DNA of 60,176 nt from NCBI GenBank assembly GCA_019116585.1, contig DXBJ01000067.1, forward strand, positions 1-60,176, read 5' to 3'. The stretch is from Candidatus Faecalibacterium gallistercoris (GTDB lineage: Bacteria > Bacillota > Clostridia > Oscillospirales > Ruminococcaceae). Both the position numbers and the translations under genes were made by a program. Below the pieces are notes generated by a model. It worked only from the letters and a program-made list of their open reading frames with translations. It was not told the DNA's origin and did no database searches. Shown piece after piece: positions 1,163 to 6,194 of the stretch (the stretch's first letter is position 1; each line of letters starts with the position of its first letter).

Positions 1163-1232
1163 CGCGTGGGATACAACTTTGCCCTTGCAAAATCAGCCAA
1201 ATGTTGTATGATGGATGTATACAACCCACGCG
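1163..1232 (+). promoter_or_regulatory. Promoter of the PL9-CE12 gene with overlapping operator-like repeats
   Basis: TTGCAA (1185-1190), a 16-base spacer and TATGAT (1207-1212) form a promoter. The -10 box lies inside GTTGTAT (1203-1209), which is mirrored by ATACAAC (1219-1225). A third ATACAAC is at 1171-1177. The whole is bracketed by CGCGTGGG (1163-1170) and CCCACGCG (1225-1232). The same heptamer overlaps the -10 box of the repressor gene at 6363. Confidence 0.65.
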
Positions 1233-1311
1233 GCGCGTGTCTTGAAGCCTGGGCCCGCTGCGGGGCCGGGCAGGGTGTGCGCCCAGCGCAGGGAAGAGAA
1301 GGAGGAACACC

Positions 1312-4300
1312 ATGAGTCATTCACCCAAAGCACGCCTGCGGGCGCGGCGGTTTGCCGCCGGCCTGCTGGCGGCAGCCATGACGGCCAGCTGTATCCCGGC
1401 GGCCCTCGCGGCGGACAATGACACCAGCAAAAGCTGGACCTTTACCTGGTTTGGCCCGTCCACCAGCGAGACGGCCAACACCGTCAGCGCGCCCGACGGC
1501 ATCGGCGGCAAGATCGTCATGACGTCCTGCACCTCGAAAGAGGACGGCACCATCGACAAAAAGGGCGGCAAGTTCGTCTCGTCCGACCCCGCCGACGGCA
1601 TCAGCTTCTATTACACCACCATCGACCCGGCCAGGGAAAATTTCTACCTGCAAGCCGACGTCACCATCGACTACGTCAACCCCACCCCCGACGGCCAGGA
1701 GGGCTTTGCCCTGATGATCCGGGACGTCATCGGCAAGACCGGCGAGAGCGCCAGCTTTGAGTCCAACCTGGTGTCGGTCACCGGCACCAAGCTGCCCTAC
1801 GACGGGATGAACGGCTCCACCGAGGTCAAGGACATGGTGGGCGTCCGCAGCTACACCGGCATCAGCGACCTGTCCACCGTGGACAGCGATGCGCTGAAGG
1901 TCTACCGCCAGGGCTTTGACCCCAACGGCGCCGCCATCCAGCAGGGCGACACCTACCGCGTCAGCCTGGAAAAGACCGATTACGCCTACATCGTCACCCA
2001 GTACGCCATCCATGGCGACGGCTCCACCGGCGCTGTCCTCGGCCAGCATACCCTCTATATCCCGGCCAAGGATCCCAGCGCCGAGAGCGTGTCCAGCTAC
2101 GACGAGCTGGATGACCCCATGCTGGTCCAGGACGATCTGGGCTATGTGGGCTTCGCAGCGGCCCGCGGCATGAACGTCACCTACTCCAACATCACCTTTA
2201 CCACCAGCGCCTGGGACGCCGCCGGCTGGCATCCCCAGGAGCCTGAGCAGGTGGCCGCCGACTACCAGATCACCAGCCCCGCCACCGCCGCCGAGAACAG
2301 CTATACCCTGGTGTTCAAGGCCAACGCCGACGGCAGCGCCAACGTGTACCAGAACGGCGCGCTGGTGGAGTCCGGGGTGGCCGTCACCGCCAACACCGAA
2401 TTCTCCGCGACCTATCCCATCGCCGGGGACACCACCTTCCGGGTGGAGTTCACCCCCGACCCCGACTACAAGATCTCGGCCTTCGAGGTGCTGAACAGCT
2501 ATGACACCGCTGTGGTGGAAAAGACGGTCACCGTCCGCACCATCGGCGACGGCAGCACCATCTATGTGACCCCCGCCGGCCAGAGCGCCGCGGGCGGCTC
2601 CAGTTACGCCGACGCCGTCGACCTCCAGACCGCCCTCGACTATGCCACCGCCGGCCAGACCATCCTGCTCCAGCCCGGCCGCTACGATCTCAGCGGCGCC
2701 CTGCTCAAGGTGGCCCGGGGCCGCAGCGGCACCGCCAGCCAGCCCATCACCCTGAAGGGCGACGGCGGCTATGCCATCCTGGACTTTGGCCGCTCGGGCG
2801 CCGGCTTTGAGCTGTGGGGCGACTACTGGCACGCCAGCTTCATCAACGTCACCAACAGCGCCGACGGCTCCAAGGGGATGCAGGTCTCCGGCAGCCACAA
2901 CATCATCGAGCGGATGAACTTCTACAACAACGGCAACACCGGCCTGCAGATCTCCGGCTCCTCGGCCGAGACCATCGAGAAATGGCCCAGCTACAACACC
3001 GTGCTGAACTGCACCTCCATCAACAACGCCGACTCCCAGATGGAGGATGCCGACGGCTTTGCCGCCAAGCTGACCGCCGGCGTGGGCAACGTCTTTGACG
3101 GCTGCATCGCCGCCTACAACGCCGACGACGGCTGGGACTTCTTTGCCAAGGTGGCCACCGGCTCCATCGGCAACACCACCATCCGCAACTCGGTGGCCTA
3201 CCGCAACGGCTGGATCAAGGTCGTCCCGGGCAGCACCGCCAAGGATTGGAGTTTCGCCTCCGTCTCCTGCGACGAAAACGGCACCCTGACCGTGGACCCC
3301 GCCGCCGAGACCCTGGACGCCGGCAACGGCAACGGCTTCAAGATGGGCGGCTCCAACATGCCCGGCGCCCATGTGCTGGAAAATTCCATCTCCTACGAGA
3401 ACAAGGCCAAGGGCATCGACTCCAACTCGGGCCTGGACATCAAGGTCTACAACTCCACCAGCTTCAACAACGGCAGCTACAACGTGGCCCTGTACACCAG
3501 CGACAAGGCCGCCGCCACCGGCTATGAGGCCGAGGGCGTCCTCTCCTTCCGCACCGACGGCAAGGACATCCCCGAGCAGATCGAGCTGCAAAGCCAGTCC
3601 AGCACCGACGTCTACGGCCGCACCAACTACTATTGGGACACCGAGGCCCAGTCCAGCCACAACACCTCGTCCAACCAGACCGCGGCTTCCCGCTTCTGGT
3701 TCTGGAGCCTGGACACCAGCCGCGAGCCCACCCGCAACGCCGATGGCTCGATTGATATGCACGGCCTGCTGCTGCTCAACCAGATCGGCAAGGCCTTCAC
3801 CGGCGGCAACGCCGGCGCCCGGGGCGAGGCCTGGGGCCAGCACGAGCCCGAAAAGGCCACCATCTGGGTGGTGGGCGACTCCACCGTCTCCGGCTTTGAC
3901 GACGACTACTACCTGCCCCGGGAGGGCTACGGCGAAGAGCTGGCCAACTACCTCAACGCCGACGTCTACAACCTGGCGGTCTCGGGCGCGTCCAGCAAGG
4001 ACTTCCTGACCATGGACAGCTACACCACCCTCCGCCAGGGCAGCGACACCGTCCCGGCCATGGGCACGGTCCCCGGGACCGAACAGTTCCTCCTGATCGG
4101 CTTCGGCCACAACGACGAAAAGACCGAGGAGGCCCGCTACACCAACCCCAACGGCGACTACAACACCCCCGGCAGCTTTGTCAACAGCCTGTATGTCAAC
4201 TACATCCAGCCTGCCCTGGCCGCCGGCGTCACTCCCATCGTCTGCACCCCCATCGTCCGCCTGACCGACGCCAACACCCATGAGAGCTACGACGGCGAGT

Positions 4301-5451
4301 CCGGCCACATCACCAAGACGGTGGAAGCCTACGGCAACACCTTCCCCGGCGGCGATTACGCCCAGGCGATCCGGGATATGTGCCAGGCGCTGGACATCCA
4401 GTGCATCGACCTGACCCGCCTCACCGAGGACCTGAACGTCCGGATGGGCCAGCATGCCCAGTGGATGCACGCCTTCACCGGCGCCAAGTACGCCGCCGAC
4501 GGGGTCAGCCTGATCCCCACCGGCCTGGACAAGACCCACACCAACAGCTACGGCGCCAAGATGAACGCCTGGCTGATCGCCAACGCCGACACCTCCCTCA
4601 AAAAGTACAGCCGGCACAAGGTCCAGCCCACCTACAACGCCGACTTTGCCGACGCCGCCAACCCCGACTATGAGGTCAGCAGCTACGCGGCGCCCACCGG
4701 CGTCAGCGCCCTCTGGCCCGCATACACCGACGCCAGCGGCCGTGTCTGGAACGGCACCGTCTTTGGAGATGTGGGCGGCCAGGACAAGATCACCGCGGAG
4801 AACTTCACCGCCCAGCTGGGGGCCGACGGCTCCATCACCCTGGGCGTGGCCAACAACCGCGGCAAGATCGCGGGCAGCTCGGACGGCATCATGATGTACT
4901 ATGTCCAGCTGCCGGCCGGCACCACCTTCAAGCTGTCGGCCACCGCCACCGTCAACAGCATGGCCGCCAACAACCAGGTCTCCTTCGGCCTGATGGCCCG
5001 TGACGACCTGTACATCGACACCTACGTGGCCGAGACCATGGGCGACTATGTGGCGGCAGGCACCCGCAACCAGGGCGCCTTTGCCGGCTTTGGCCGCAAG
5101 AGCGGCGAGCTGTACAACGCCCCCGCCGCCACCCAGGTCTACGCCGCAGGGGACACCCTGAAGCTGGAGATCGTGGGCTCTGCCGACGGCTACACCGTCA
5201 CCTATGGCGACAACGCCCCGGCGTCGGCTGGGTTCGACTACCCCCTGACCGCTGTGGATTCCGATTACATCTACGTCGGGTTCTACGTCTCCCGCAACTG
5301 CAACGTGACCTTCCGTGACATCGCGCTGGAAGTCACCGGTTCCGCAGCTGCCGGGTCTGCCGGCGGCGCCGGCGCTTCGGCCCAAGCTCCTGCCGGGCCC
5401 TCCCTGGTGGAAGAAGCCTGGACCGCGGTCCGCGGCTGGATCGGCATCTGA
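1312..5451 (+). CDS. Secreted PL9-like pectate lyase fused to a CE12-like SGNH acetylesterase, 1379 aa
   Basis: A Sec signal peptide with cleavage near residue 33 (ALA|AD) indicates export. A beta-sandwich-like region (about 38-290) and a linker precede a right-handed beta-helix of PL9 type (about 415-830). The helix shows GNGNGFKMGG with Lys677 at the expected catalytic-base position and Asp-rich probable calcium sites near 577-606. An SGNH domain follows (about 850-1100) with GDS (Ser857), GHND (Asn934) and DKTH (Asp1073, His1076), as in rhamnogalacturonan acetylesterases. The C-terminal region (about 1115-1350) is another beta-sandwich. I see no LPXTG or other anchor, so it is probably released. 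The domains suggest cleavage and deacetylation of pectin. GAAGGAGG (1297-1304) sets the start. Family assignment is from motifs only. Confidence 0.85.
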   Translation: MSHSPKARLRARRFAAGLLAAAMTASCIPAALAADNDTSKSWTFTWFGPSTSETANTVSAPDGIGGKIVMTSCTSKEDGTIDKKGGKFVSSDPADGISFYYTTIDPARENFYLQADVTIDYVNPTPDGQEGFALMIRDVIGKTGESASFESNLVSVTGTKLPYDGMNGSTEVKDMVGVRSYTGISDLSTVDSDALKVYRQGFDPNGAAIQQGDTYRVSLEKTDYAYIVTQYAIHGDGSTGAVLGQHTLYIPAKDPSAESVSSYDELDDPMLVQDDLGYVGFAAARGMNVTYSNITFTTSAWDAAGWHPQEPEQVAADYQITSPATAAENSYTLVFKANADGSANVYQNGALVESGVAVTANTEFSATYPIAGDTTFRVEFTPDPDYKISAFEVLNSYDTAVVEKTVTVRTIGDGSTIYVTPAGQSAAGGSSYADAVDLQTALDYATAGQTILLQPGRYDLSGALLKVARGRSGTASQPITLKGDGGYAILDFGRSGAGFELWGDYWHASFINVTNSADGSKGMQVSGSHNIIERMNFYNNGNTGLQISGSSAETIEKWPSYNTVLNCTSINNADSQMEDADGFAAKLTAGVGNVFDGCIAAYNADDGWDFFAKVATGSIGNTTIRNSVAYRNGWIKVVPGSTAKDWSFASVSCDENGTLTVDPAAETLDAGNGNGFKMGGSNMPGAHVLENSISYENKAKGIDSNSGLDIKVYNSTSFNNGSYNVALYTSDKAAATGYEAEGVLSFRTDGKDIPEQIELQSQSSTDVYGRTNYYWDTEAQSSHNTSSNQTAASRFWFWSLDTSREPTRNADGSIDMHGLLLLNQIGKAFTGGNAGARGEAWGQHEPEKATIWVVGDSTVSGFDDDYYLPREGYGEELANYLNADVYNLAVSGASSKDFLTMDSYTTLRQGSDTVPAMGTVPGTEQFLLIGFGHNDEKTEEARYTNPNGDYNTPGSFVNSLYVNYIQPALAAGVTPIVCTPIVRLTDANTHESYDGESGHITKTVEAYGNTFPGGDYAQAIRDMCQALDIQCIDLTRLTEDLNVRMGQHAQWMHAFTGAKYAADGVSLIPTGLDKTHTNSYGAKMNAWLIANADTSLKKYSRHKVQPTYNADFADAANPDYEVSSYAAPTGVSALWPAYTDASGRVWNGTVFGDVGGQDKITAENFTAQLGADGSITLGVANNRGKIAGSSDGIMMYYVQLPAGTTFKLSATATVNSMAANNQVSFGLMARDDLYIDTYVAETMGDYVAAGTRNQGAFAGFGRKSGELYNAPAATQVYAAGDTLKLEIVGSADGYTVTYGDNAPASAGFDYPLTAVDSDYIYVGFYVSRNCNVTFRDIALEVTGSAAAGSAGGAGASAQAPAGPSLVEEAWTAVRGWIGI

Positions 5452-5488
5452 TCTTTTTGTCCCTCTCCTCCTGAGGTAACACAGAAAC

Positions 5489-5540
5489 ACCCCGCCGGCT
5501 CGCTGTGCACAGCACAGGGGCAGGCGGGGCGTTTCGTTTC
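5489..5540 (+). terminator. Intrinsic terminator after the PL9-CE12 gene
   Basis: CCCCGCC pairs with GGCGGGG around an inner CTGTG-CACAG stem, followed by the T-rich GTTTCGTTTC. It lies 38 bases after the stop codon. Confidence 0.65.
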
Positions 5541-5728
5541 GGTGGGGAGCCAGGCTCCGCCGTTCCGAAAAATCCCGTGCAAGCGGGAACTGCTATTTCA
5601 CAGCGCGGCGCGGAAAAGACGGAGGAAAAGGGCGCGCCCCGGTCCAGGACAGGGGGCGGCGGGCTCGGAGTTGGGACAGCCGCCGCCCGGCAGGGCGCGT
5701 CCCGCAAGGCGCAGCGCAGGGAAACCGT

Positions 5729-6004
5729 TCAGGCCACCCGGAGCGAGTCGGGCCGGGCCGCCTCTCCGGAGGCGGGGCGGCTGTGCCCGGCGGCGGCCGG
5801 GGCGCGGCGTCGGGTGGCGCGGCGGGCGGCCTGCCGTTCCGCACGCTGTTCGGCCGCCCAGGCGGCCCGCAGGATGCGGTACCCGGCCAGGCAGAGGGCG
5901 GCCGCCAGGGGCAGGCTCATGGTCCCCTCGGCAAAGGCCCCCAGGACCAGTACCAGGGCCAGCGCAACCGTAAGGATCCAGCATTTCCAAAGCAGACACT
6001 TCAT
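5729..6004 (-). CDS. Small two-segment membrane protein with Arg-rich tail, 91 aa
   Basis: The start ATG follows GGAGGAGG on the minus strand, and a consensus promoter lies upstream, so this is likely a real gene despite its size. Two hydrophobic segments (about residues 5-24 and 29-46) are followed by a tail very rich in Arg and Ala, ending in a polar stretch. The positive-inside rule places the tail in the cytoplasm. I recognise no family. It is transcribed divergently from the CI-like repressor, and a GTTGTAT copy sits 6 bases upstream of its -35 box, which suggests shared control. The high Arg content could partly reflect GC-rich DNA, so the tail should be read with care. Confidence 0.65.
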   Translation of the reverse strand: MKCLLWKCWILTVALALVLVLGAFAEGTMSLPLAAALCLAGYRILRAAWAAEQRAERQAARRATRRRAPAAAGHSRPASGEAARPDSLRVA

Positions 6005-6070
6005 AGGACGGGACCTCCTCCACACAGCGTTACAACCAGAAAGACAACCGCAAGTTGTTTTATTGCCTTT

Positions 6071-6099
6071 ATCATAAACCAAAATTGGGTCTCTGTCAA
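6071..6099 (-). promoter_or_regulatory. Sigma-A promoter of the small membrane protein gene
   Basis: On the minus strand TTGACA (complement of 6094-6099) is followed by a 17-base spacer and TATGAT (complement of 6071-6076). It fires toward the gene starting at 6004, opposite to the repressor promoter 42 bases away. Confidence 0.75.
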
Positions 6100-6105
6100 G
6101 AGGAA

Positions 6106-6194
6106 ATACAACTTTTATTCGCTTTTTTACAAATTTGTACTTTACAGGGACACTTTTTGGTTGTATAATAAAAACAAGAAATAACCAGTTGTAT
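6106..6194 (+). promoter_or_regulatory. Repressor promoter and operator cluster
   Basis: TTTACA (6141-6146), a 17-base spacer and TATAAT (6164-6169) form the plus-strand promoter. GTTGTAT occurs at 6160-6166 (overlapping the -10) and 6188-6194, and inverted as ATACAAC at 6106-6112. A perfect 12-bp palindrome TACAAATTTGTA lies at 6128-6139. The layout fits autoregulation by the repressor encoded downstream. Confidence 0.65.

Follow-up and report, generated by a model that had tools for sequence, protein, structure and literature searches.

The window analysed here, a stretch of 60,176 nucleotides from Candidatus Faecalibacterium gallistercoris (GenBank assembly GCA_019116585.1, contig DXBJ01000067.1), carries a gene for a repressor of the CI/LexA type, a small divergently transcribed gene for a membrane protein and, beyond the latter, a gene for a pectinase of the polysaccharide lyase 9–carbohydrate esterase 12 (PL9-CE12) type; their coordinates, promoters and candidate operators are collated in Table 1. 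The subject of this analysis is the repressor and the set of genes that it is predicted to control. In a preliminary description of the window, the heptamer GTTGTAT had been proposed as an operator shared by all three genes, with pectin degradation answering to DNA damage or another cleavage-triggering signal and not to the usual sugar sensing. The heptamer occurs six times, as described (at 1171, 1203, 1219, 6106, 6160 and 6188), and nowhere else in the window, against 1.58 copies expected (standard deviation 1.18; six or more copies in one of 100 shuffles), and all six copies are confined to the two intergenic regions. The promoter scan likewise placed the copies at 1203 and 6160 over −10 boxes and the copy at 6106 next to the −35 box of the divergent promoter.

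Table 1. Features of the pectinase–repressor region (positions are those of the window).
Feature	Position	Strand	Remarks
PL9-CE12 type pectinase	1312..5451	+	neighbour, probably outside the SOS system
PL9-CE12 promoter, TTGCAA-16-TATGAT	1185..1212	+	contains non-conserved GTTGTAT at 1203-1209
Putative hexuronate-type operator	1215..1224		one mismatch to TTGTATACAA; TGTATACAA at 1216-1224; just 3′ of the −10 box
Weaker relative of the hexuronate-type operator	1167-1176		two mismatches
Small membrane protein, 91 amino acids, ends LRVA	5729..6004	-	predicted to be SOS-regulated; candidate division inhibitor
Exact operator, ACAAC-CGCAA-GTTGT	6044..6058		between the divergent −10 box and the ribosome-binding site of the membrane protein gene; overlooked in the preliminary description
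Divergent membrane-protein promoter, TTGACA-17-TATGAT	6071..6099	-	promoter scan
ACAAC half-operator	6106..6122	+	32 bp 5′ of the CTTTAC element; beside the divergent −35 box
Repressor promoter, TTTACA-17-TATAAT	6141..6169	+	promoter scan; conserved over 28 loci
Imperfect operator, ACACT-TTTTG-GTTGT	6150..6164	+	overlaps the repressor's own −10 box; equal 15-bp spacing
SOS repressor candidate, 210 amino acids	6363..6995	+	CI/434-type HTH_3 domain and Peptidase_S24

The repressor matches the Pfam families HTH_3 (3e-19) and Peptidase_S24 (5e-24), and the Ala95–Gly96 bond, Ser128 and Lys166 are all present, forming the intact self-cleavage set that had been noticed before. A CI-type helix-turn-helix (HTH) domain is accordingly found fused to an S24 domain with an Ala–Gly bond and a Ser/Lys dyad, the make-up of a non-canonical CI-type SOS repressor. 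Equivalents of the three sites were found in all 28 genus orthologues (75–100% identity, from 28 of the 31 genus genomes) and in 23 of 23 more diverse orthologues, the window repressor being counted among the latter. The domain by which a canonical LexA is recognised, LexA_DNA_bind (PF01726), is not among the Pfam matches of the protein, and its score against TIGR00498 (65.9 bits, under the cut-off of 110.95) is due to the S24 half only. The nearest named relatives (75–100% identical) all belong to Faecalibacterium. The closest solved HTH structures are those of the phage 434 repressor (PDB 1r63, 1per, 2or1), whose Thr-Gln-Gln (TQQ) motif is aligned at the equivalent place; both glutamines are invariant in the 23 diverse orthologues. 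The operators of phage 434 have the form ACAA-N6-TTGT, and the TQQ glutamines sit in the recognition helix and read that half-site. The 434 HTH model was itself tested by mutagenesis, as a review notes (PMC8163980).

The operator predicted from the comparison of related loci is not GTTGTAT: it is the 15-bp palindrome ACAAC-N5-GTTGT. The 28 genus upstream regions have a constant promoter in common, CTTTAC...GTTGTA(T/C)A(A/T/C)T, in which the CTTTAC element contains the repressor's −35 box and the heptamer at the −10 box forms the right half of the imperfect operator at 6150–6164. This −10 operator deviates from the palindrome by one mismatch in 16 and by two mismatches in 12 of the 28 promoters, and an ACAAC half-site lies 31–33 bp 5′ of CTTTAC in every one of them. 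One or two exact copies of the palindrome precede the divergent small gene at 14 of the 28 loci. A recognition helix like that of phage 434 suits ACAAC-N5-GTTGT, which argues that the window repressor itself reads this palindrome. At three Gemmiger loci two exact operators are accompanied by a one-mismatch copy and by a one-mismatch −10 copy, the latter two being separated by 42 bp, the same distance as from 6108 to 6150 in the window; the heptamer at 6106 therefore looks like a decayed operator. In 14 loci of an F. prausnitzii-type clade (L043–L056) the exact palindrome is missing, and the half-site and the −10 operator are retained; two tRNA-Ser genes lie upstream in the four of these loci that were scanned (L043, L044, L051 and L054).

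A scan of named genomes gave 69 related loci, mainly from Faecalibacterium, Gemmiger, Subdoligranulum, Fournierella, Anaerofilum, Ruthenibacterium, Pygmaiobacter, Anaerotruncus and other Oscillospiraceae, of which 66 could be used for the upstream comparison after exclusion of three fragments or remote hits. The operator was found in exact form at 57 of these 66 loci and with no more than one mismatch at 65, and the best of nine permuted palindromes reached one and six loci, respectively. More remote homologues were without it: the repressor of Marinitoga virus 1 (37% identical) has no such operator upstream (best site three mismatches), and the operator is likewise absent upstream of the 38–41% identical homologues in genomes G039 and G057 (best sites four and three mismatches). 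One 4.6-kb record entered as "Bacteriophage sp." (MT839076.1), which codes for an 81% identical repressor, is probably a mislabelled fragment of a Faecalibacterium chromosome: its repressor promoter is that of the genus loci, its upstream sequence is alike by eye, and it bears no annotation; a scan for tRNA genes gave none in it.

The same palindrome was found at core SOS genes. In the 2.34-Mb genome to which the window belongs it occurs in exact form only twice, namely at the repressor locus and upstream of recA, where it lies (C62:10770) 77 bp 5′ of the coding start (RecA match 1.2e-165; RecX adjoins). In all 30 genus genomes in which recA could be placed, an exact operator precedes that gene by 77–119 bp; these loci were reached through palindrome hits, and the count covers 30 of the 31 genomes, recA of the 31st (G023) being outside the fetched stretch. 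By eye, this operator mostly overlaps the likely −35 box (TTGTAA), approximately 16–17 bp before a TATACT-like −10 box. For uvrB, 30 loci were fetched and two without a gene start were excluded; the operator is found with at most one mismatch in 27 of the remaining 28 promoters (two exact, 25 with one mismatch), mostly just 3′ of the −10 box. Upstream of the Y-family polymerase gene (≤700 bp) the form AAAAC-N5-GTTGT is found in nine of 30 loci, and one further locus has a one-mismatch site of different form. An operator common to the repressor's own gene and to genes of repair and translesion synthesis lends support to the DNA-damage signal that had been suggested for the repressor.

Some further sites were recorded in the course of these comparisons. 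The exact uvrB operators, about 50 bp 5′ of the gene, belong to two divergent genus members (L096, G008:C18; L098, G027:C23), and the one-mismatch sites of other species take forms such as ACAAC-N5-ATTGT or ACAAC-N5-GTGGT. Between a one-mismatch operator and the Y-polymerase gene of the window genome (L135, G000:C66) an open reading frame of about 100 codons without a family match extends from 1932 to 2261. An exact operator of G023 (L093, G023:C71, about 4581) is followed, after about 35 bp, by an uncharacterised gene starting MIHELILQGCAP, which may be a species-specific SOS gene. The one-mismatch sites of the window genome lie mostly inside open reading frames; those examined further were the uvrB and Y-polymerase regions and one ABC (ATP-binding cassette) transporter region, which carries TTGTATACAA as well.

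Outside the genus, 30 genomes bearing a repressor orthologue were taken, of which 28 gave a usable recA promoter; the exact operator is present in 18 of these, and none of nine permuted controls gave an exact match. The consensus of the Gram-positive LexA box is GAAC-N4-GTTC. This box, for which recA promoters outside the genus only were scanned, takes the place of the palindrome in all four Anaerotruncus/Marasmitruncus promoters (two exact, two with one mismatch), and a one-mismatch form is present in one Pygmaiobacter promoter; in three Anaerofilum and two remote promoters no convincing box of either type was found. Within the genus a canonical LexA box at recA was counted as absent, all 30 promoters bearing ACAAC-N5-GTTGT. 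The Anaerotruncus/Marasmitruncus repressors form one clade (Shimodaira–Hasegawa-like approximate likelihood ratio test 100, in a quick tree made without bootstrap and with many other forks open), and the distribution as a whole looks like a staged takeover of SOS control across genera. In a separate sample of 29 genomes of the order from outside the genus, none has an exact recA operator. One of them (G031, L259), from a genus in the same family, has a one-mismatch copy 40 bp 5′ of its recA family match; nothing was found in it by the LexA model, and it may have the same system.

The 31 genus genomes are without a convincing LexA. The LexA winged-helix model (PF01726) gave no match at E ≤ 0.001 in 27 of them and weak hits of 21–25 bits in the other four, three of which (G008, G013 and G019) are below the curated cut-off; in four of six sister genera sampled it scores 44–56 bits.

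In Faecalibacterium and related Oscillospiraceae the protein very probably acts as the SOS repressor; it would be a CI-type repressor captured from a phage, in the place of LexA, and the pectinase would stand outside its regulon. Bound as a dimer to ACAAC-N5-GTTGT at the promoters of its own gene, the divergent membrane protein, recA, uvrB and the Y-family polymerase operon, the repressor would block the −35 box, the −10 box or early elongation. On DNA damage, RecA filaments would form and set off cleavage of the Ala95–Gly96 bond by Ser128 and Lys166, which would free the target genes; the membrane protein, induced in this way and short-lived, would arrest division, and fresh repressor made from its own promoter, with its weak operator, would reset the switch.

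Several results weigh against this assignment. All of the regulation, from binding through RecA-triggered cleavage and induction to division arrest, is read from sequence. By number alone, the palindrome cannot be called rare: the 31 genus genomes have 52 exact copies versus 33 for the reversed pattern, and when up to two mismatches are allowed, the window genome has more sites for the reversed pattern (1729) than for the palindrome (768); the case therefore rests on the positions of the sites. These positions have gaps: in other genera, 10 of the 28 recA promoters from genomes with a repressor orthologue are without the operator, 20 of 30 Y-polymerase loci have no site at zero to one mismatch, and uvrB of G023, the sole exception of 28, has a two-mismatch site only. 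The recA operator is present in G008, G017 and G024, in which no repressor orthologue was found (their assemblies are 87–93% complete), and the LexA hit of G024, at 25 bits, is marginally over the cut-off. At 22 of the 66 loci, among them all three of F. prausnitzii type in that set, no small divergent gene could be recognised, and its reading as a division inhibitor draws on position, size and C-terminus only. Finally, the genome contains 16 further S24- or HTH-domain matches.

The existence of such paralogues leads to the alternative that ACAAC-N5-GTTGT belongs to one of them, or to an unrelated regulator, and that the window repressor is merely one target among others. In G015 an exact palindrome does lie beside a 31% identical S24/HTH paralogue, perhaps the repressor of a mobile element (L100, G015:C7, about 3886). 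The alternative is nevertheless very improbable in our view, as the palindrome precedes the repressor orthologues at 65 of 66 loci across genera, which is what autoregulation predicts, and the 434-like recognition helix suits it; the recA promoters of other genera that lack the palindrome also count against it. Equally little credence is given to control of the pectinase by the repressor through GTTGTAT, by which pectin degradation would answer to DNA damage. Three heptamers do lie within a stretch of 55 bp at the pectinase promoter, one of them over the −10 box, where a two-mismatch SOS operator, TCAGCCAAATGTTGT, can also be read, equal in mismatches to the imperfect operator at 6150–6164. 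Two-mismatch sites occur about once per 3 kb, however, so that about 7% of promoters of such size would have one by chance, and at the matching place in the orthologous PL9-CE12 promoters of G012, G016 and G013 four, five and four mismatches are found. The heptamer itself was rejected as an operator: the genome has 108 copies, which makes it unspecific, yet more than the 36 of the reversed pattern; among the three close PL9-CE12 orthologues, two have GCTGTAT instead of the copy at 1203, and the copy at 6188, 3′ of the repressor promoter, is present at only two of the 28 genus loci, one of them that of the window. The palindromic arrangement GTTGTAT-N9-ATACAAC at 1203–1225 was discarded as well, since it is unique in the genome but broken in G016 and G013. 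Nor is the neighbourhood of pectinase and repressor conserved: a strong PL9-CE12 match (query: the C-terminal 783 amino acids) was found in six of 31 genus genomes, whereas G002 gave a fragment at the end of a contig and G007 a weak match; the gene is far from the repressor in G005 and on another contig in G004.

A better candidate operator is present at the pectinase promoter, and the gene, which matches the Pfam Beta_helix and GDSL domains and, under the curated cut-offs, the NCBIfam models PelX (7e-68) and PaeY (6e-11), is likely to belong to a hexuronate (galacturonate) regulon with the operator TTGTATACAA, the heptamers at 1171 and 1219 being half-sites of it. The core TGTATACAA is kept in four of four close PL9-CE12 promoters (the window, G012, G016 and G013), the three orthologues having TGTATACAA(C/G) directly after the −10 box, and matches the genome 12 times in forward and eight times in reverse orientation, compared with none for the reversed control. 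An operator in common with hexuronate catabolic genes was found: TTGTATACAA lies between uxaB and uxaC (tagaturonate reductase and glucuronate isomerase), TGTATACAA lies upstream of the KDPG (2-keto-3-deoxy-6-phosphogluconate) aldolase gene, and sites of this type also precede genes for solute-binding proteins of ABC and TRAP (tripartite ATP-independent periplasmic) transporters. Set against this are the distant orthologues, of which that in G005 keeps GTATACAA and a one-mismatch site and that in G004 only a two-mismatch site, as well as some TGTATACAA sites that fall within coding regions or next to genes lacking a family match. The site is presumably of the GntR-family type. The pectinase therefore fits ordinary sugar sensing outside the SOS regulon, contrary to what the preliminary description had proposed, and the two genes had been linked because the SOS and hexuronate operators have the letters GTTGTA in common. 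What stands of the proposed regulatory link is a predicted self-cleaving CI/LexA-type repressor with a DNA-damage signal, probable autoregulation and control of the divergent membrane protein; neither an operator role of GTTGTAT nor control of the pectinase is supported.

The divergent membrane protein has a hydrophobic N-terminal segment and an arginine-rich tail, and no Pfam, NCBIfam or PHROG match was obtained for it. The gene is conserved in 14 genus loci, and a comparable open reading frame was found at 44 of the 66 orthologous loci, with little sequence common between genera. The C-terminal residues are AA, VA, SA or IA in 39 of these 44 frames and AAS in four, and the remaining frame, which may be spurious, ends in II; the 44 rows are related, and the ends were counted without a background rate. 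From its position, size and C-terminus, the protein is probably a short-lived SOS-induced inhibitor of cell division, which is the least certain step of the proposed mechanism. A small membrane protein divergent from the repressor with an operator in the common region is the arrangement of SosA and YneA, and the SOS division inhibitor DivS has the same one. PMC6851548 describes SosA as carrying the operator of the SOS repressor from which it diverges, places SOS division inhibitors of several Gram-positive bacteria next to lexA, and names the C-terminal protease CtpA as proposed to remove SosA and reported to remove YneA. The protein described here differs from SosA, YneA and DivS in having no family match and in its conserved non-polar C-terminus.

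SOS repressors of this kind have been described in Streptococcaceae and Bacteroidetes (PMC8565304), and a reduced form in Francisella (PMC13148647); here the lineage is new, with an operator of its own and a new divergent membrane-protein partner. HdiR of Lactococcus and Streptococcus likewise combines a CI-like HTH with S24 and exerts SOS-type control in bacteria without LexA, its targets in S. thermophilus including the cinA-recA and umuC loci (PMC8565304); likened by description, the present system differs from it in its host lineage and in having uvrB and the small membrane protein as additional predicted targets. The non-canonical LexA of Bacteroidetes is also a chromosomal CI-type S24 repressor with a canonical SOS network and an N5-spaced palindrome, but this palindrome is a different one (CTAA-N5-TTAG), and the family is reported to be exclusive to Bacteroidetes (PMC8565304). 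FddR of Francisella resembles the window repressor as a co-opted, autoregulated phage repressor with divergently transcribed targets; unlike here, where recA and uvrB carry the operator, its palindrome is GTG-N11-CAC and canonical SOS genes are not induced (PMC13148647). With the phage 434 repressor the protein has the HTH fold and the ACAA...TTGT type of operator in common; the operator is 15 bp long instead of 14 bp, and the predicted role is a chromosomal SOS role.

A wider reading is put forward tentatively, with slightly less than even confidence: that this is a third independent capture of a full SOS regulon by a CI-type (434-like) phage repressor, caught part-way, and that the membrane proteins form a new family of divergently encoded, SOS-induced division inhibitors whose alanine-type C-terminus is a degradation tag. 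The part-way state, if true, would be seen in Anaerotruncus/Marasmitruncus, where the repressor gene has its own operators and recA keeps its GAAC-type LexA box, and recA would already have been switched in Faecalibacterium, Gemmiger and relatives, a major human gut group. Among human gut commensals, Faecalibacterium is one of the most abundant. The open-access literature that was searched gave no account of an SOS repressor in this genus; a co-expression module enriched in SOS functions has been reported for strain A2-165 (PMC9674144), and the main text of that paper makes no mention of LexA, recA, umuC or a repressor. With operator and repressor defined, the DNA-damage response of the genus would become directly testable, and the genes switched on by DNA-damaging antibiotics can be predicted. 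The spread of the recA box over genera would open repressor takeover to study at intermediate stages, and the membrane protein family would offer defined candidates for the control of division during the SOS response of Clostridia.

Upstream of the pectinase gene, positions 127–834 of the window code, without a Pfam or NCBIfam match, for a predicted lipoprotein of 235 amino acids, the signal of which ends in LTACG.

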